IMG/VR virus record: IMGVR_UViG_3300046747_000460
Coordinates: 1 to 40,905 of that record
Reading direction: 5' to 3' (one strand)
Source of the DNA: a virus
DNA: 40,905 nucleotides
Part shown: positions 1 to 40,591 of the stretch, one piece after another
Position numbering within the stretch: the first letter of the stretch is position 1
How the letters are laid out: every line of letters begins with the position of its first letter
The notes under the pieces: generated by a model
What the model saw: the letters and a program-made list of their open reading frames with translations, nothing else
Told to the model about the DNA's origin: nothing
Databases searched by the model: none
Program-made: the position numbers and the translations under genes

Positions 1-27
1 TTTGGAAAATGAAATGCAGCTGCGGTC
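1..27. repeat. Terminal direct repeat, left copy (circular junction)
   Basis: Bases 1-27 are identical to 40879-40905. Together with the open gene that crosses the junction in frame, this shows a circular or circularly permuted molecule of 40,878 bp whose assembly overlaps itself by 27 bases. The repeat lies inside coding sequence, so it is an assembly overlap and not a biological terminal repeat. Confidence 0.93.
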
Positions 28-470
28 AGATTTTTGAAAAAGTTCCAAAAAAGTGTAGAGGAAAATATGCTACATGTGGATGTCATTGGGATAATTATCA
101 TTTAAAAAGAGTAAAAGATAAAGTTGGTAATTCATACTTATTACTTAAAGTGGAGAAAATCTTAAGGAAAGAAAATGGTCATTACATCTTGCAAATGAAA
201 TGTAAATGTGGAAATCGATTTGAACGAAAAAATGGCCATGAATTTAAATCTGGATCTTGTGGATGTTTAATATCTAAAAATAATCCACGGGAAGATAAAA
301 AAGGAAATGCTAGATTTAAGAATTATGAAATCTTAAGTATAAGAGAATTTTATGAAGCAAAAACCTATTCACTTGAAGAGTTAGCTGAAATGTTTAATTG
401 CACTCCTCATTATATTTGGAGAATCGTAAAAGGAAAAATCTGGAAATCTTTACTTCCTGCTTCTGAATAA
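1..470 (+). CDS. Triple zinc-ribbon DNA-binding protein, C-terminal part (begins at 40581)
   Basis: This is the continuation of the gene that starts at 40581, in the same frame; the duplicated 27 bases must be removed. It completes ribbon 2 (KCSCGQIFEKV ... ATCGC) and carries ribbon 3 (NSYLLLKVEKI ... KCKCGNRFERK ... SGSCGC). The last ~40 residues (YSLEELAEMFNCTPHYIWRI) look like a helix-turn-helix. Three tandem ribbons plus an HTH with no nuclease domain suggest a sequence-specific DNA-binding protein, perhaps a regulator, or a homing endonuclease that lost its nuclease. It ends facing the - strand operon that ends at 529. Confidence 0.8.
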   Translation, partial: WKMKCSCGQIFEKVPKKCRGKYATCGCHWDNYHLKRVKDKVGNSYLLLKVEKILRKENGHYILQMKCKCGNRFERKNGHEFKSGSCGCLISKNNPREDKKGNARFKNYEILSIREFYEAKTYSLEELAEMFNCTPHYIWRIVKGKIWKSLLPASE

Positions 471-3279: not shown

Positions 3280-4245
3280 CTATTTCTCATAATCTAGATT
3301 AATGACCTTAAAACTAATCGGCCCATGGCCATGATTCTCCCGAGATCTCACGACAACGCCCTCGCGCGGCTTCCCATTGGGATAATTACCATCGCCAAGA
3401 GTTTCTACTGAGGATTTATCAAAAGATTCTCCCTTTTCTACAATTCTCACGGTAGGAAATGCTAGCTTTTCACAAAAATCAATGAATTCGCGCCCATCCA
3501 AATATCGATGCTCATGAATATTGTAAACTGAGAAGGCATAGCCCTCAATTCTGGGAAGTCCAAGAGGATTGCTCTGGATCTTCGGGCCGCAGGTCTCCCA
3601 TTGAATGGCATAGCCTTCTGGGAGATAATCCTTCAAATCATATCGATTTGCAACTTCCCAATAGCCAACGTTTAAGTCCTCTTCAAGCTCCCAATTTCTT
3701 GAGCAAACCCCAAACTCATCCTTGTATCGATAAGCCGTAGAAGAGCTTCCATCGACCTTCTCTGTGATGTAAAATGGCTTGCCATGAAGCGAATCGACAA
3801 GCTCAGGATTGCTTTGATAATTCGGCTCATCAGTCTTGGGAATAAAGTCGGGAAATGGCCCTTTTGCTTTGCCTTGAAGATTAGCCGGGACGGGCTTATG
3901 ATATTTGGTAACACCAAATACAAAAGTCATATCGACGCCTACATTCAACTCCAGATTTTTGTATGGATAAGGCATAATCACGACTTCACTCGGCGCCCCG
4001 CGGAATCTCCTCATCTTCACTCGCCAATGAGAGCTTCTCATGAAAGCCATCTCTTCATTCTCGGGAATTTGAGCATCCGGAAGATATACTAGGCAAAAAT
4101 TGCCTAGTTGGAAGTCCCCCTTCTTGACAATCCCCCGCCATTTTCCTCCGGGACCACAAACAACCGTCGCGCTGACGATGAAATCGGCATTTTCGATGGG
4201 ATCTAAGGCAATGATCTTGCCGATATAGACTAAACCATTATCCAT
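3280..4245 (-). CDS. RNA ligase, Rnl5 (DRB0094-like) family
   Basis: A 321-aa ATP-dependent RNA ligase. The N-terminal ~130 residues are beta-rich and OB-like, the module that marks the Deinococcus DraRnl (Rnl5) group. The nucleotidyltransferase core has motif I EKVDG (Lys163, the AMP-accepting residue), a motif Ia/SRN segment (GVCSRNWEL), motif III (IQWETCGPKIQ), motif IV (EGVVVRS) and motif V (SFKVINLDY). All key residues look intact. The family seals 3'-OH/5'-phosphate nicks in RNA. SD GGAGG lies before the ATG, and the gene overlaps the upstream gene by 8 bases. It sits ~400 bases downstream of a tRNA in the same transcription direction, which suggests tRNA repair; that role is inference. 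Confidence 0.9.
   Translation of the reverse strand: MDNGLVYIGKIIALDPIENADFIVSATVVCGPGGKWRGIVKKGDFQLGNFCLVYLPDAQIPENEEMAFMRSSHWRVKMRRFRGAPSEVVIMPYPYKNLELNVGVDMTFVFGVTKYHKPVPANLQGKAKGPFPDFIPKTDEPNYQSNPELVDSLHGKPFYITEKVDGSSSTAYRYKDEFGVCSRNWELEEDLNVGYWEVANRYDLKDYLPEGYAIQWETCGPKIQSNPLGLPRIEGYAFSVYNIHEHRYLDGREFIDFCEKLAFPTVRIVEKGESFDKSSVETLGDGNYPNGKPREGVVVRSRENHGHGPISFKVINLDYEK
4088..4108. repeat. Perfect palindrome inside the RNA ligase gene
   Basis: ACTAGGCAA-AAA-TTGCCTAGT, 9-bp arms. Its right 17 bases (4092-4108) recur exactly at 6777-6793 next to the TerS promoter. Candidate binding site of a dimeric regulator; it lies in coding sequence here. Confidence 0.6.
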
Positions 4246-4643: not shown

Positions 4644-4716
4644 TGGGACAACCGGGATTTGAACCCGGGACCTAGAGGTTATGAGTCTCTTGCTCTAACC
4701 GCTGAGCTATTATCCC
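4644..4716 (-). tRNA. tRNA with CAU anticodon (elongator Met or lysidine-type Ile2)
   Basis: A 73-nt cloverleaf on the - strand: acceptor GGGATAA/TTGTCCC with one T-G pair, D arm GCTC/GAGC, anticodon loop CTCATAA (anticodon at 4681-4683), T arm CCGGG-TTCAAAT-CCCGG and discriminator A. CCA is not encoded. G1-C72 excludes initiator tRNA. The anticodon stem (AGAGA/CCTCT) has an A-C mismatch at 31-39. The body resembles bacterial tRNA-Ile2 (GACTCATAA context), which reads AUA after TilS modification, but Met cannot be excluded. Its first 7 bases overlap the end of the HTH gene upstream, so RNase P cleavage would cut that mRNA. Confidence 0.93.
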
Positions 4717-8454: not shown

Positions 8455-8762
8455 GCCTTGAGGAGAGAGTCAAGATTAAGAGGTATATTGATAATGGGTA
8501 TTCCCTTTTTCTTATCTCTCAATGCCTCAAGCGTTCAAAAAATACCATTATTGTAGAGGTAAATAAAAACGGGGGGAGGGAAATATATGACCCTGTTGCA
8601 GCTCAAAATAATGCTGATTTAAATAAAAAGATAAGGCTAAAAGCATTGCATAAGGGGAGAAATTCACAGACTCAAGGACGCACTTCCTTTAAGGAGAGAA
8701 TTGCTAATCTTGAAATGCAAGTTGAAATATTAACAGAAACAATTAGGAATTTAAAGAGATGA
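8433..8762 (+). CDS. IS30-type HTH (HTH_38) plus coiled-coil DNA-binding protein
   Basis: A 109-aa protein with GTG start. Residues ~7-50 form the HTH (LEERVKIKRYIDNGYSLFLI ... IIVEVNKNGG); residues ~85-109 form a coiled coil (RIANLEMQVEILTETIRNLK). It is a paralogue of the 95-aa protein at 4710-4997 with the same domain order, and like it has no transposase catalytic core. A dimeric DNA-binding regulator is likely. The stop overlaps the ParB-like gene start (ATGA), so the two are co-translated. Confidence 0.8.
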   Translation: MSIKTFLGLEERVKIKRYIDNGYSLFLISQCLKRSKNTIIVEVNKNGGREIYDPVAAQNNADLNKKIRLKALHKGRNSQTQGRTSFKERIANLEMQVEILTETIRNLKR

Positions 8763-9481
8763 CATTACAGAAAACTAAAGAATATGACAAGTTCATTTTT
8801 AGAGATGATAACCGCCTTAAAATTGATCAAGCCCATGTCAAAAGACTAGTAGAATCCATTCAATCTAGAAATCTTCTTGATCTACGGCCCATCATAGTCA
8901 ATCAAGATTATGAAATCCTTGACGGCCAGCACCGTGTTCTTGCAGCTAAAAAGCTGGGAGTTGACATTTACTATGTGATTGAAGAAAAGCTCCATCATAA
9001 AGATATTATTCTTATGAATGTAGCTAAGAGTTGGACGTTAGCCGATTCTTTCAATTACCATGTAAAAAACCATTACCCCGAATATGTGAAATTAAAGGAA
9101 TTTATGGATAAGGAGAATATCTCTTTATCAATTGCTATCCACATGACAATGGGAAGAAAGAAAGATCAATTCTTTAATTTTAAGAATGGTAAGTATAAAT
9201 TCAATGTTGATTCAATCGGCAAAACAGACATTATTTGGGATACGATTAATTACATTAAGTCAATTAATGGAAAATCCCTATATTGTTTGACAGCACGATT
9301 CTGGAAGGCCTTAAACGCTCTTTTCTCTCATGATGACTTTGATCAAGATCAATGGATGCGCAATCTAAAGAAGTTCATCAATCGAGTAAATGTGCGGGCT
9401 ACTTGTCCCGACTACTTAGAGTTATTTCTTGAAATATACAACCACAGATTGGCCGTTAAACTTGAATTGCCGAAGGAATAA
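8759..9481 (+). CDS. ParB/Srx-like nuclease-domain protein, copy 1
   Basis: A 240-aa protein. Residues ~14-75 are a ParB-type N-terminal domain: IDQAHVKRLVESI, RPIIVNQDYEILDGQHRVLA with the DGQHR core at 55-59. Modern ParB domains of this type bind CTP or, in relatives, act as nucleases. The remaining ~165 residues are helical and lack the standard ParB HTH/parS domain. A paralogue with the same DGQHR position lies at 39848-40591. Coupled to the HTH_38 gene upstream by an ATGA, which suggests the pair act together. Role (partition, regulation or DNA modification) not settled by sequence. Confidence 0.85.
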   Translation: MTLQKTKEYDKFIFRDDNRLKIDQAHVKRLVESIQSRNLLDLRPIIVNQDYEILDGQHRVLAAKKLGVDIYYVIEEKLHHKDIILMNVAKSWTLADSFNYHVKNHYPEYVKLKEFMDKENISLSIAIHMTMGRKKDQFFNFKNGKYKFNVDSIGKTDIIWDTINYIKSINGKSLYCLTARFWKALNALFSHDDFDQDQWMRNLKKFINRVNVRATCPDYLELFLEIYNHRLAVKLELPKE

Positions 9482-12299: not shown

Positions 12300-12699
12300 T
12301 TAACAAAATGGTTGTCTTAGGCTCTAGGCTGTAGAGCTTAACTGCCATTCCTAGCGAAACTTGCCTATCATCCTCTATGACTATTTCAGTCATGCAATCA
12401 AGATAAAGCTTGATGAGGTTATCCGCATCAGGCTTTTTCTCATGCTTCACGCGCCCCGTTTCCATGAGTTTGCGCAGCTTCTTGGGAGTCGATAGAGGTA
12501 TGGGAAAGTCAAAGATAAAAGAGATCCTAGGGCTAGAAAAAGCTGTTGTAGGCTTATGATTACGCATAAGGTATTTTATGGCATCTTTTTCTTTTGCCTT
12601 CGGATCATACATCCGTACAAAACCCCCGCGGGCCGTTCCTTTCATACGTCCCTGAGAAACTGGACAGCCGGGGATGATAATTTTTAAGGATTCTGCCAA
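12085..12699 (-). CDS. rusA: RusA-like Holliday junction resolvase with an unusual C-terminal extension
   Basis: A 204-aa ORF with TTG start (MAESLKIIIPGCPVSQGRMK). Residues 1-133 are a full RusA domain: the catalytic set is KPDADNLIK (Asp91, Asp93, Lys97) and EDDRQV (Asp110/111). RusA proteins normally end about here (~120 aa). Residues 134-204 are encoded exactly antisense to the end of the serine recombinase gene and look non-homologous (Ser/Leu-rich). RusA cuts four-way junctions during recombination or before packaging. It is the last gene of the replication operon. Confidence 0.88.
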   Translation of the reverse strand: MAESLKIIIPGCPVSQGRMKGTARGGFVRMYDPKAKEKDAIKYLMRNHKPTTAFSSPRISFIFDFPIPLSTPKKLRKLMETGRVKHEKKPDADNLIKLYLDCMTEIVIEDDRQVSLGMAVKLYSLEPKTTILLTSTSKIISPWEMDLPFFPVEESSTLMFSERDYPCDSYNLASQVQRLSHHNYAPQLLELSSAQELSVLLDAV

Positions 12700-27789: not shown

Positions 27790-28071
27790 TTAAGTGATCA
27801 AAGTCCAAGTCACTGCTTCCGGTGTTGTCCTCGATGTCATTATCCATGCAGCATTAGTATCAGTTCTTACCGCTAAATCCCCTATAGAAAAGAAGCGATT
27901 CCTTTGATCATTGGCTGCTGGATTTGCCCCGCTGAGGATATTCTTTTTCGCTAGAATTCCAATCGATAAAGCGATGTCGGTGTACATCTCATCCAACTGC
28001 CTAAGAAGCGCTTTCTCTTCAGTTTTAGCGGCTTCGCCCCAATTCTTCTTAAGAGGTAGATTAGAACTCAT
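27790..28071 (-). CDS. Small virion-type protein (93 aa)
   Basis: A 93-aa protein: a helical N-terminal half (WGEAAKTEEKALLRQLDEMY) and a C-terminal beta part ending 'GDLAVRTDTNAAWIMTSRTT' and WTLIT. That ending is common in small phage tail proteins placed between the gp10-like stopper and the ejection genes; by position it could correspond to P22 gp26/gp14, but the size differs from gp26 (233 aa). ATGA overlap with the gene before. Confidence 0.68.
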   Translation of the reverse strand: MSSNLPLKKNWGEAAKTEEKALLRQLDEMYTDIALSIGILAKKNILSGANPAANDQRNRFFSIGDLAVRTDTNAAWIMTSRTTPEAVTWTLIT

Positions 28072-30317
28072 ACCAACCTGCCAATTGGAGACATTCCAGG
28101 CATCATCGCATGAACTTTGATCTTAGCCCCTGCTTGAGTATTTCTAACCCTAAACTGAAGGAAACGTGCCGTCTGATTGATCCAGATTTTTACCCATTTT
28201 TTGTTTCCAGTCTCTCCAGGAAGATTAGTGCAATTTATCGAATAAGTGAAATTAGGTATTGAAGTATTTTGAACCGGACTTGAAGGATTATTCACATTAT
28301 CATTGGTGAAGACATCGACTGTCAAGGTAGCAGGAACAGAGACGATTTCTTCCTCTCCTTCGCTATTGATAATAGTTTCAGTTAAGTCAGTTGTTGCTGT
28401 TTCTACATAGAAATAAATCCAGCCGATTCGAATCTTCTTGTCCATCTCCACGAAGGGATTCAATTGCTTTGTGAGGAACTCAAAAGGAATGACTTTTGAG
28501 GCTAATCCACCTTCAGTATAAGCATCAAATCCAAGTGTTTTTATTTGCACGTCAACAACATTATAGTCAGTACTTATAACTTTAATAGCACCCTGTTTTC
28601 CATTAATTTGGGTCATCCCTCCGACATCTTTAAAGGAGATGTAATCACCAACATTGTAATTATTCCAGTCAGTTGTCACTCTTACAATGTCATCACTGAT
28701 GACTTGCATAGCTCTAATTTTAAGAGGATTGTCTTCCCCTTGGGTGTCATTGAGCTTCCAGACTTCACCTTTATGTCCTCCTCCCACACTCATTGGAGTT
28801 CCTTTGGAGTAAGGAAAGCTATTCCAGCTGCCATAAGTGTCGGAAAGAGCATCCCAATCTGGAAAGCCCGCTTCTGCAGTTAAATCTGCCCAAGTAATTC
28901 CGAAGGCGACCTGGAAGTTCCCCATACATGAAAGAGGGATGCGATAAATGCTATAATTATCTTCCTCAAAGTTATTAACGAGAATTCTATCAGATGAGCC
29001 TATTGGCACAAGAGCTGGCCTTACAGTCCCTTGAGAAGGATAGAGGAGATAAACATCTCTATCTTCATCCAAGAAGCCTGAGAAACACGATTCAAATTGA
29101 TCGTTGTTAATGCTATTGAAGGCGAAATTAGGAATCATCTCATCCATTCTTTCTACGCTATAACCATCAACGACTAGAAGACCTCTAGGACTAGCAGCAA
29201 AAGTTCTGTTGAGGTAAGAGATAACTGAGAAGGCTGCCTTCGATCCTCTACTTCCATCAAGCTTCTCTAGAATGAAAGGAGTGACATCATTTCCGGTATA
29301 TTTAAGCATCCATGTAGCTGCTTCTGTAAAGAAGAGAATATCATCACGGTTAAATGCAGCTCCATAGAAGAAGGTGTTATCGGGGATGTCGATGAATCCA
29401 GCTCCAGTAGCTGTATTATCAAAGTTGTCAGAGTTAGCTCCAGTTCCGGAGATTCTTATTCTTCTTGGATAGAAAGTAGCCGCTTCCACAGTTTGAAAAA
29501 GAACTAAGCGGTCCCGAACGTTGAATATCTGCCTTGCATTGAGAGATCCTATTGTAAACGTAGGGGCATAATCTTGAAGAATTGTTCCATCCCATTGTTG
29601 AATTACATCTCCGGCAACTCCATTAGAAAACAAAAGTCTAGGAATTGAGGAAGGGCTAGCATAGTTAACCCAAGAGAAGAAGTCTTGATAATCCCCTGTA
29701 TATGGGTAATGATTAGGAGGCACTGCTACGGCAGCAGCTATATATTCTAGTCTATCTGTTGTAGGGTTGTATTTATTTAGATATTTAGTATCAACCACAA
29801 GCAATTGACGAGTATTATCATTCGGATAGAAGTTCATCACTCCCATCACTGGAAGTCCTTGATGATAACTATAGGTGGCTGTGACTGTTGAGGCTAAAAT
29901 AGGAGCTGCTGTAAAAGTGACTGAGACGGCGCCGGTAGTATAATTGATCGTTCCGGTTCCAGCTCCCGTAAAACCCCCAACCCCATTATCGGTCAAAACT
30001 TGAACAGGATTAGATCCGGTTATAACAAACGTTCCTCGTTGAACATAATCAGTGGCATTAATGGTGAAGGTTTTATTAGCTCCATCAATAGCTCCCGTCA
30101 TCGCAGCCGCTGTAACTTGAACAACCATTCGGCTTTCTGTATAAGTAGATTTTCTTCCATTTGCGAGCCCTGAATAGCCATCTCTTTTTGTAGTGACTCC
30201 TCGATAGACATATCCATCAAACAGCTCAACCATTGCATCATTTGGAAGAAGCCATGGCTGTAGCCTTTGGTCTAGTCCAGTCGCATAGGCTGCAATCAAA
30301 AAGGGTTGGTAGCTCAT
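28068..30317 (-). CDS. Tail hub / packaged-DNA stabilisation protein (P22 gp10-like role)
   Basis: A 749-aa beta-rich protein. The start (YQPFLIAAYATGLDQRLQPW ... YRGVTTKRDGYSGLANGRKS) and the repeating beta-propeller-like segments (FSWVNYASPSSIPRLLFSNG; FFYGAAFNRDDILFFTEAAT; YLNRTFAASPRGLLVVDGYS) are typical of the gp10/stopper family that follows the gp4 adaptor in P22-like phages. Residues ~72-150 look like an inserted Ig-like domain (ANKTFTINATDYVQRGTFVI). It is longer than P22 gp10 (472 aa), mainly through this insert and a C-terminal beta domain. Confidence 0.75.
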   Translation of the reverse strand: MSYQPFLIAAYATGLDQRLQPWLLPNDAMVELFDGYVYRGVTTKRDGYSGLANGRKSTYTESRMVVQVTAAAMTGAIDGANKTFTINATDYVQRGTFVITGSNPVQVLTDNGVGGFTGAGTGTINYTTGAVSVTFTAAPILASTVTATYSYHQGLPVMGVMNFYPNDNTRQLLVVDTKYLNKYNPTTDRLEYIAAAVAVPPNHYPYTGDYQDFFSWVNYASPSSIPRLLFSNGVAGDVIQQWDGTILQDYAPTFTIGSLNARQIFNVRDRLVLFQTVEAATFYPRRIRISGTGANSDNFDNTATGAGFIDIPDNTFFYGAAFNRDDILFFTEAATWMLKYTGNDVTPFILEKLDGSRGSKAAFSVISYLNRTFAASPRGLLVVDGYSVERMDEMIPNFAFNSINNDQFESCFSGFLDEDRDVYLLYPSQGTVRPALVPIGSSDRILVNNFEEDNYSIYRIPLSCMGNFQVAFGITWADLTAEAGFPDWDALSDTYGSWNSFPYSKGTPMSVGGGHKGEVWKLNDTQGEDNPLKIRAMQVISDDIVRVTTDWNNYNVGDYISFKDVGGMTQINGKQGAIKVISTDYNVVDVQIKTLGFDAYTEGGLASKVIPFEFLTKQLNPFVEMDKKIRIGWIYFYVETATTDLTETIINSEGEEEIVSVPATLTVDVFTNDNVNNPSSPVQNTSIPNFTYSINCTNLPGETGNKKWVKIWINQTARFLQFRVRNTQAGAKIKVHAMMPGMSPIGRLV

Positions 30318-32189: not shown

Positions 32190-32227
32190 GTTAAAAAATA
32201 GGAAGGAAGATATTCAGTCCTCCTTCC
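32190..32227 (-). terminator. Intrinsic terminator behind the HNH gene, inside the late operon
   Basis: On the - strand GGAAGGA, 13-base loop, TCCTTCC, then TATTTTTTAAC. It lies 25 bases after the HNH stop. A terminator here would cut the late operon, so it either leaks or was carried in with the HNH gene. Confidence 0.65.
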
Positions 32228-32251
32228 CGGATGACGCCGGAGCATCATCTA

Positions 32252-32746
32252 TTAAATCTTCCTGTGCAACTTCCCATGACAGGTATGGCATACCCAAACC
32301 ACTTCCAGATGCTTTTGGTAATCTGAGTGATGGGCCTGTAAAATAGTTTCTGAATTACATAAACAACAATTTTTTGGCTTAATTAATCGGCCTTTCATTA
32401 TGGCTTTTGATACAGCCTGTCTTGCTCTAGCTTTATGAAGATTATTCTTTCTATAAACTTCAGCTCTTTCATTACTAAACTTTCCATAAGACTCCCTCTT
32501 CCGAGCCTTCTCAAGAAGTTGATCTCTATTTTTCCAATATCTTTCTCTTGCCTTTCTATTGAATTCTTCTTTATCCGAATTCCTAGAACTTTTTCTTTGC
32601 TCAGAAAGCTTCCTGGCTATTTCAGGATATTTTTTTCTAGCCTGAATATTTCTACATTCTTTGCACACTTTCATCGGTGTGCCTCGGTCTTTTCTCAAAT
32701 AAAACCGATCTAGATCTAAATCTTGCTTGCATTTTTCACACATCAT
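32252..32746 (-). CDS. Free-standing HNH endonuclease
   Basis: A 164-aa protein. An N-terminal zinc module (CEKCKQDLDLDRFYL ... CKECRN) is followed by a basic helical linker (KARERYWKNRDQLLEKARKR) and the HNH nuclease: CCLCNS, then LQAHHSDYQKHLEVVWVCHT and CHGKLHR with the paired His, the Asn-equivalent position and the second Cys pair. The start is ATG 32746, with SD AGGAG; the preceding 25 codons lack one. Homing endonucleases of this type lie between essential late genes as here. Its translation start is inside a strong hairpin. Confidence 0.87.
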   Translation of the reverse strand: MMCEKCKQDLDLDRFYLRKDRGTPMKVCKECRNIQARKKYPEIARKLSEQRKSSRNSDKEEFNRKARERYWKNRDQLLEKARKRESYGKFSNERAEVYRKNNLHKARARQAVSKAIMKGRLIKPKNCCLCNSETILQAHHSDYQKHLEVVWVCHTCHGKLHRKI

Positions 32747-32778
32747 GATACACTCCTTTTTATTGGAGCATATCATGA
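32743..32778 (-). promoter_or_regulatory. Hairpin sequestering the HNH ribosome site and start codon
   Basis: On the - strand RNA, UCAUGAUAUGCUCC (32778-32765) pairs over all 14 positions with GGAGUGUAUCAUGA (32756-32743), with loop AAUAAAAA. Two of the pairs are U-G and G-U; on the + strand these would be mismatches, so the structure is specific to the sense mRNA. The 3' arm contains both the SD (GGAG) and the ATG (32746-32744). Confidence 0.8.
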
Positions 32779-32807
32779 CGAGAGTATTAAAATCTAATTG
32801 CAACTCA

Positions 32808-39847: not shown

Positions 39848-40591
39848 ATGCAAAACATAGAGAAAACATCTGACTATAGCAAATTTAAGCTCTTAGACGG
39901 AAATCGTCCCATAGAGAAATACCACATTAAGAAGCTCATAAAATCAATTGAGAAAGACAACCGTCTTAATCTACATCCTATCATCGTAAATAAAGACTTC
40001 TTCGTTATCGATGGCCAGCATAGACTTGAGGCTGCTAAACATCTTGGAGTTGAGCTATTCTATATCCAGTCTGATTCGGTTTCCGATTTACATATCATCG
40101 AGTGCAATGTTAATCAGAAGTCTTGGGAAGTTGAGAACTATATTGACTATTTCGCTATCAAAGAGAGGAAGGTCGAATATATCCAATTGAAAGATATGAT
40201 GAAATCCTCTGGTTTGAAGCCTAAAGCTCTTCTAACACTTATCTTGGGTGTAGTTAGCACTAATATCTTAGACTTTCTTAAGACGGGAAAGTTTAAATTT
40301 CCACACAAAGATAATTCATCTGAGATTCTTTGCTTTTACTTTGACTTCTTAGCTTATGCAAAAGACAAACGGTTGAAGCCTTTATCAATGTTCACAAATC
40401 ACAACTTTACAAGATCAATCCGTTGGATATTCATGACTTCAGGATTTGATTCTTCTTTGTTTTTCAAGAAGCTAGATCTTCGATGGTTTGATCTGAAGCC
40501 ACAGAGAAGCGCCGAGGATTGGTATAGTCTTTTGATATCCATTTACAATTTTAAGAATCATAATCGGTTAGAAGAAGAATATGGGAAATAA
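39848..40591 (+). CDS. ParB/Srx-like nuclease-domain protein, copy 2
   Basis: A 247-aa paralogue of the protein at 8759. The N-terminal domain aligns without gaps at the core: PIEKYHIKKLIKSI, HPIIVNKDFFVIDGQHRLEA (DGQHR at 55-59). The C-terminal part keeps the general plan (YIQLKDMMKSSGLKPKALLT and a FLKTGKFKF segment like the FFNFKNGKYKF of copy 1) but is diverged. SD AAGGAG. The next gene (zinc-ribbon protein) begins inside its last codons. A pair of diverged ParB-like genes in one phage suggests two regulatory or partition targets. Confidence 0.85.
   Translation: MQNIEKTSDYSKFKLLDGNRPIEKYHIKKLIKSIEKDNRLNLHPIIVNKDFFVIDGQHRLEAAKHLGVELFYIQSDSVSDLHIIECNVNQKSWEVENYIDYFAIKERKVEYIQLKDMMKSSGLKPKALLTLILGVVSTNILDFLKTGKFKFPHKDNSSEILCFYFDFLAYAKDKRLKPLSMFTNHNFTRSIRWIFMTSGFDSSLFFKKLDLRWFDLKPQRSAEDWYSLLISIYNFKNHNRLEEEYGK

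Follow-up and report, generated by a model that had tools for sequence, protein, structure and literature searches.

A candidate promoter inside an RNA hairpin that covers the start of an HNH endonuclease gene inserted in a phage structural operon

The DNA analyzed here, called the window below, is a 40.9-kb IMG/VR virus record (IMGVR_UViG_3300046747_000460, 40,905 nucleotides) that encodes a portal of the P22 type as well as a terminase and a major head protein. Immediately behind the head protein gene lies the structural protein gene P0002 (32808..33512, minus strand), the product of which weakly matches a major tail protein family. The gap between P0002 and the next operon gene, P0003 (31690..32178, minus strand), harbors a gene for an HNH endonuclease of 164 amino acids (32252..32746, minus strand; phrog_2340, E = 7.6e-31), which starts at 32746 or at a second ATG at 32743. 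P0002 would be the source of read-through into this gene, and an intrinsic terminator of the structural operon is present at 32200..32228 on the minus strand (32190-32227 in the original prediction). Some further features of the window were recorded. An E1_FCCH-like domain match occurs both in P0002 and in the structural protein encoded at 28068-30317 (minus strand). An RNA ligase gene (3280-4245, minus strand; phrog_968) is located close to a tRNA gene (4644-4716, minus strand), possibly forming a tRNA-repair pair. The genes at 8759-9481 and 39848-40591 (both plus strand) match the ParB-like family phrog_12305, and at the record edge a gene at 9-470 (plus strand) weakly matches another HNH endonuclease family, phrog_59.

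The assignment as an HNH/zinc nuclease follows from the phrog_2340 match and from invariant cysteines and histidines. In the first alignment of the family the N-terminus carried an invariant CxxC...CxxC pattern and the C-terminus a CxxC-HH-DY-W-CxxCH pattern. Pfam and PDB sequence searches with the family gave no useful match, and a direct DNA search of the HNH region against phage records gave none. A protein scan of IMG/VR with the window HNH sequence alone returned 0 relatives; these were obtained by pattern and alignment searches, using three alignments for IMG/VR and adding a few phage and genome loci. A scan of the genome collection with alignment A2 yielded 20 loci.

In relatives found via P0002 and P0003 the HNH gene is absent and the gap is usually ca. 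40-85 nt long. Among the matches listed, nearly all of these gaps without an HNH gene contain a GC-rich terminator-type hairpin, L016 being one that does not. The slot is thus polymorphic, empty in these relatives and occupied in the window, L125, L282, L229 and others. The original prediction had taken the terminator for the HNH gene's own, which is not borne out since a hairpin of terminator type also occupies this gap in phages that lack the HNH gene. The terminator is therefore part of the structural operon and predates the HNH gene; the inserted cassette, which by comparison with empty sites extends over approximately 32229..32807 (minus strand), landed between P0002 and its terminator. 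When the flanking proteins were compared with all fetched loci, the slot emerged as a hotspot, with HNH genes in at least 11 other phages (L125, L282, L229, L256, L216, L217, L220, L223, L224, L225 and L274). The sequences suggest that the window gene is a free-standing, homing-endonuclease-like insertion, and homing activity is what we infer for its product. A group I intron around the HNH reading frame was considered as well. An Rfam scan of the window region gave no match at E ≤ 1, and the same scan was blank at the split-polymerase locus L118, where an intron is probable; the intron reading is disfavored because the position of the window gene is intergenic.

The start of the HNH gene is embedded in an RNA hairpin (32743..32778, minus strand), which was characterized by folding, opening energy and covariation. 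The hairpin consists of a 5′ arm TCATGATATGCTCC (32778-32765), a loop AATAAAAA (32764-32757) and a 3′ arm GGAGTGTATCATGA (32756-32743), all on the minus strand. The stem has 14 pairs, including the wobbles G32769-U32752 and U32770-G32751, and grows to 16 bp via 32779-32742 (G-U) and 32780-32741 (C-G). The GGAG (32756-32753) of the Shine-Dalgarno (SD) sequence AAGGAG (32753..32758, minus strand) is located in the 3′ arm and is paired in the fold. The ATG at 32746-32744 also lies inside this arm, and the second ATG (32743-32741) is at its base. Folding of the minus strand gave a minimum free energy of −24.0 kcal/mol, compared to −6.5 ± 1.9 kcal/mol for shuffled sequences (z −9.15; 0/200 shuffles equal). 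The plus strand, folding into 8 + 4 bp that flank a 2×2 internal loop, reached only −15.4 kcal/mol because both wobbles turn into mismatches there, a value still well above chance (z −4.6). Opening of positions −14 to +3 of the HNH start would cost 21.6 kcal/mol, against 5.9 ± 2.5 kcal/mol for leader shuffles (maximum 19.1, n = 2000). The earlier claims that the stem is complete only with two wobbles available on the sense strand, and that it hides the SD and the ATG, are thereby confirmed at the level of structure prediction, and a stable RNA structure is predicted to sequester both signals on read-through transcripts. The hairpin begins 27 nt past the P0002 stop codon, a distance at which a ribosome that terminates there should not be able to melt it. 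An in-frame ATG at 32776 in the 5′ arm (MICSNKKECIMMCEKC; in L071 MLCSDKKEHSMLCKKC) was rejected as the true HNH start since it has no SD sequence; it is probably a by-product of the palindromic TCATGA arm.

A scan with a pattern made of the loop and SD identified a distant phage, L071 (the same as L125), with an HNH protein 41% identical to that of the window; its gene occupies the same slot, flanked by a P0002-like gene and the following gene of the operon. Its hairpin is TCATGTTATGCTCC-GATAAAAA-GGAGCATAGCATG. Most of the 60 loop-pattern matches were short stems of 4-8 bp ahead of unrelated genes, so a loop of this sequence is by itself no marker; among them only L071 shows at least 13 consecutive pairs, like the window. 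In L016 and L081 the slot contains a hairpin TCATGGTAGCCTCC-CATAAAAA-GGAGGCTTCCATG with 7 consecutive pairs; downstream of it there is just a reading frame of six codons, and the terminator is absent. In both (L016:820-930; L081 has the same sequence on the reverse strand) the hairpin geometry is kept together with TTGATT-N17-TAGCCT, in which TGG precedes the hexamer. What the slot holds is probably left over from an HNH cassette, or else is a retained promoter of P0003. In L122 (minus strand, ~12504-12537) a hairpin of this geometry, with 13 bp, was also observed; it hides the SD and ATG of a 65-residue membrane-protein reading frame unrelated to HNH.

The original prediction had asked for covariation at homologous loci, and the outcome is favorable. 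Across the window, L125 and L016, which keep the stem, 92.9% of the cells were paired and three pairs were doubly changed; sliding the partner abolished the pairing. A clade of 19 leaders that share TATAATGG before the stem covaries strongly. Pairing in its seven outer pairs reached 94.7%. Doubly changed cells numbered 40, whereas shuffles gave 11.2 (0/500) and slid arms no more than 12. The element TATAATGG is invariant and stands immediately 5′ of the covarying stem in L292, L298, L304, L313, L314, L324, L329, L334, L338, L342, L347 and others. In this clade the putative promoter stays fixed while the stem drifts through compensatory changes.

To place the window in the HNH family we compared non-redundant leaders, leaders with more than 80% identity being merged and IMG/VR sampling being uneven. 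The median opening energy was 11.0 kcal/mol for 117 SD-bearing HNH leaders versus 5.5 kcal/mol for 646 SD-bearing neighboring genes (p = 7e-26), with the HNH starts anchored on the CxxC...CxxC zinc motif and the control starts set by a different, less certain rule. Energies of at least 10 kcal/mol were found for 53% of the HNH relatives and 11% of the neighboring genes, and energies above 14 kcal/mol for 33% and 1.7%, respectively. The difference persisted after collapse to 42 protein clusters (p = 2e-13), and 57% of the HNH leaders were more structured than dinucleotide shuffles of themselves at p ≤ 0.05, versus 4% of the controls. Strong hairpins are missing from about half of the HNH relatives; the design is thus common in the family, not universal. 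Upstream gene orientation does not separate the two groups, as 56/60 hairpin and 46/52 non-hairpin HNH genes were co-directional with the gene upstream. The HNH genes in the P0002-P0003 slot are divergent and reside in phages that are only distantly related, and strong hairpins were found in 12/12, the window included. Their median opening energy was 17.9 kcal/mol, whereas HNH relatives at other sites had 9.9 kcal/mol (p = 6e-6), and no sequence is common to their stems except in the window/L125 pair.

The 5′ arm of the window hairpin contains a candidate sigma70-like extended −10 element, TG-A-TATGCT (TGATATGCT; 32767..32775, minus strand), with a predicted +1 at ~32760 in the loop. This element differs from the T4-type late promoter TATAAATA. 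A degenerate −35 candidate, TAGATT (32791..32796, minus strand), lies 18 nt from TATGCT and is weak, with 3/6 positions matching. Counterparts of the extended −10 element are TG-T-TATGCT in L125 (TGTTATGCT), TG-G-TAGCCT in L016 (TGGTAGCCT) and TG-G-TAATCT in L282 (TGGTAATCT). In these three the −35 is better than that of the window and is placed exactly 17 nt upstream (TTGAAT, TTGATT and TTGATT, respectively). A transcript from the predicted +1 of the window would expose the HNH start at a cost of 1.0 kcal/mol, versus 21.6 for the full leader. The internal promoter that had been inferred earlier has a concrete candidate, recurring across the family, and this element may well serve as the promoter of the HNH gene.

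It may be argued that the hairpin is a translational silencer only and that the HNH gene, having no promoter of its own, depends on low basal expression from read-through or on RNase processing in the loop. The strength of the hairpin, the opening energies in the family and the covariation all fit such a role. The window −35 is weak, and the purine-rich loop with the GGAG could, by analogy with T4 RegB, be a nuclease site. Promoter-like sequences were compared between leader classes. A plain sigma70 scan (9 of 12 positions) gave fewer matches than shuffles, and none at the hairpin. An extended −10 matrix, approximating that of E. coli, was applied in its place and compared with shuffles and control genes; −10-like hexamers are frequent in AT-rich DNA. 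The best −10 score in the 62 hairpin-bearing HNH leaders exceeded dinucleotide shuffles with z = 10.2, or 8.2 without the TATAATGG clade, the largest one. HNH leaders without a strong hairpin showed a smaller excess (z = 4.1), and control genes, including hairpin-bearing ones, showed none. The motif TGnTAnnnT was present in 34% of the hairpin HNH leaders, 4% of the controls and 1% of the hairpin-bearing control genes. The −10 element was also rightly placed in 92% of the hairpin HNH leaders versus 50% at random; with +1 set 7 nt past the hexamer, a transcript from it loses half or more of the 5′ arm and retains the SD. Starting the transcript at the predicted +1 lowered the median opening energy of the 62 leaders from 15.3 to 3.0 kcal/mol, and a modest −35 signal was detected (p = 0.002). 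This enrichment and placement, which hairpin-bearing controls lack, and the TTGA-type −35 elements at exactly 17 nt in L125, L016 and L282 argue against silencing alone, which we consider rather unlikely.

The inverted repeat could also function as DNA, with the pairing in RNA a by-product; it would then be either an operator through which the HNH protein represses its own gene or a portion of the site that this protein recognizes. There is a precedent in I-TevI, which acts as its own repressor through an operator that overlaps its promoter (PMC2988022), and the TCATGA arms are palindromic. The wobbles, however, favor the mRNA strand. Besides the difference between −24.0 and −15.4 kcal/mol in the window, the helices in the 62 leaders with hairpins contain 104 G-U pairs against 3 internal A·C mismatches, an excess that points to the mRNA strand although the ratio is biased because the folding software favors G-U. 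Furthermore, the arms differ completely between relatives while pairing persists, and the repeat is absent from the empty sites. A DNA element is highly improbable on this evidence. Less probable still is a role in attenuating or terminating transcription of the structural operon: the position 27 nt past P0002 would suit it, but no U-run follows the stem and a canonical terminator older than the insertion is already present downstream. Least probable of all is chance or a composition artefact, for although the DNA is AT-rich and some leaders in the set are unstructured, the z of −9.15, the 0/2000 leader shuffles as strong and the p of 7e-26 against neighboring genes speak against it and the covariation already refutes it.

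From the computed hairpin, its strand bias, covariation and recurrence in the family, and the enrichment and geometry of the −10 element, we consider it likely that the HNH gene is an insertion that is silenced in vivo on read-through transcripts and translated only from the embedded promoter. Operon read-through mRNA would carry both arms, so that the SD and ATG are hidden and the HNH gene is nearly silent on an abundant message. The 5′ arm would double as an extended −10 promoter (TGnTATGCT) from which RNA polymerase starts in the loop. Since such a transcript lacks the 5′ arm, its SD and ATG would be exposed, with the ATG ca. 14 nt from the 5′ end. The hairpin would then act as a gate set by the transcript start, which passes for translation only messages from the gene's own promoter. 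The T4-like 'silent until needed' design of the original prediction is supported by the covariation and the recurrent candidate −10, while the timing need not be that of T4. As the slot belongs to a structural operon that is presumably late, the hairpin would guard against late over-expression. Silence on the late transcript fits better than silence until late, as the read-through is presumably late and the promoter looks like one for host sigma70.

The same design with unrelated stem sequences in many HNH relatives indicates that the architecture is what is selected. We lean, with less assurance, to a broader reading, in which the compact promoter-in-hairpin leader would be a general and fast-evolving module of free-standing HNH endonucleases in many phage groups, combining concealment on late read-through with expression only from a promoter of the host-sigma70 type and so allowing them to invade structural operons that are strongly expressed. 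The last bases of the extended −10 would then double as anti-SD. If this is true, a T4 curiosity becomes a widespread rule with reversed timing, late instead of early read-through being hidden. The design would also account for a selfish nuclease gene that resides, without overproduction, within a structural operon which is essential and probably transcribed at a high level. With its extended −10 on the 5′ side of the stem, SD and ATG on the 3′ side and +1 in the loop, the signature is simple and can help to annotate starts and promoters of such genes.

In the open-access literature we found descriptions of a promoter-in-hairpin arrangement only for T4-like phages. Other comparable genes share parts of it. 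The phrog_2340 endonucleases at the polymerase loci of Herelleviridae (Moonbeam, EFDG1, Grass and G1) belong to the same protein family as the window HNH, but they reside in split DNA polymerase genes, have leaders of 165-180 nt that are probably introns, and show weaker start-codon structures. The mobE gene of Aeromonas phage Aeh1 is, according to two reviews, an HNH homing endonuclease gene within an operon with its ribosome binding site in a hairpin reported to lower translation (PMC2988022, PMC3014915). It differs in belonging to the nrd operon of a T4-related myovirus and in having a late promoter. In T4, a strong hairpin covers the SD of gene e, segB and I-TevI/II/III, with a late promoter in its 5′ strand, and for e, segB and I-TevI promoter-proximal transcripts without the 5′ arm are translated (PMC3014915, PMC2988022). 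The window resembles e, segB and I-TevI in the SD-covering hairpin and in the use of its 5′ strand as a promoter, which in the window is a candidate. By the same opening measure, segB (15.8 kcal/mol) and e (16.3) match the HNH hairpin leaders, and T4 ipII and ipIII gave 1.5 and 1.7. SegB and I-TevI are GIY-YIG enzymes, unlike the HNH family. The T4 promoter TATAAATA is a gp55-dependent late one by which late genes are hidden from early read-through, whereas the window, from a phage that is not T4-like, has a sigma70-like extended −10 candidate within a structural and presumably late operon.
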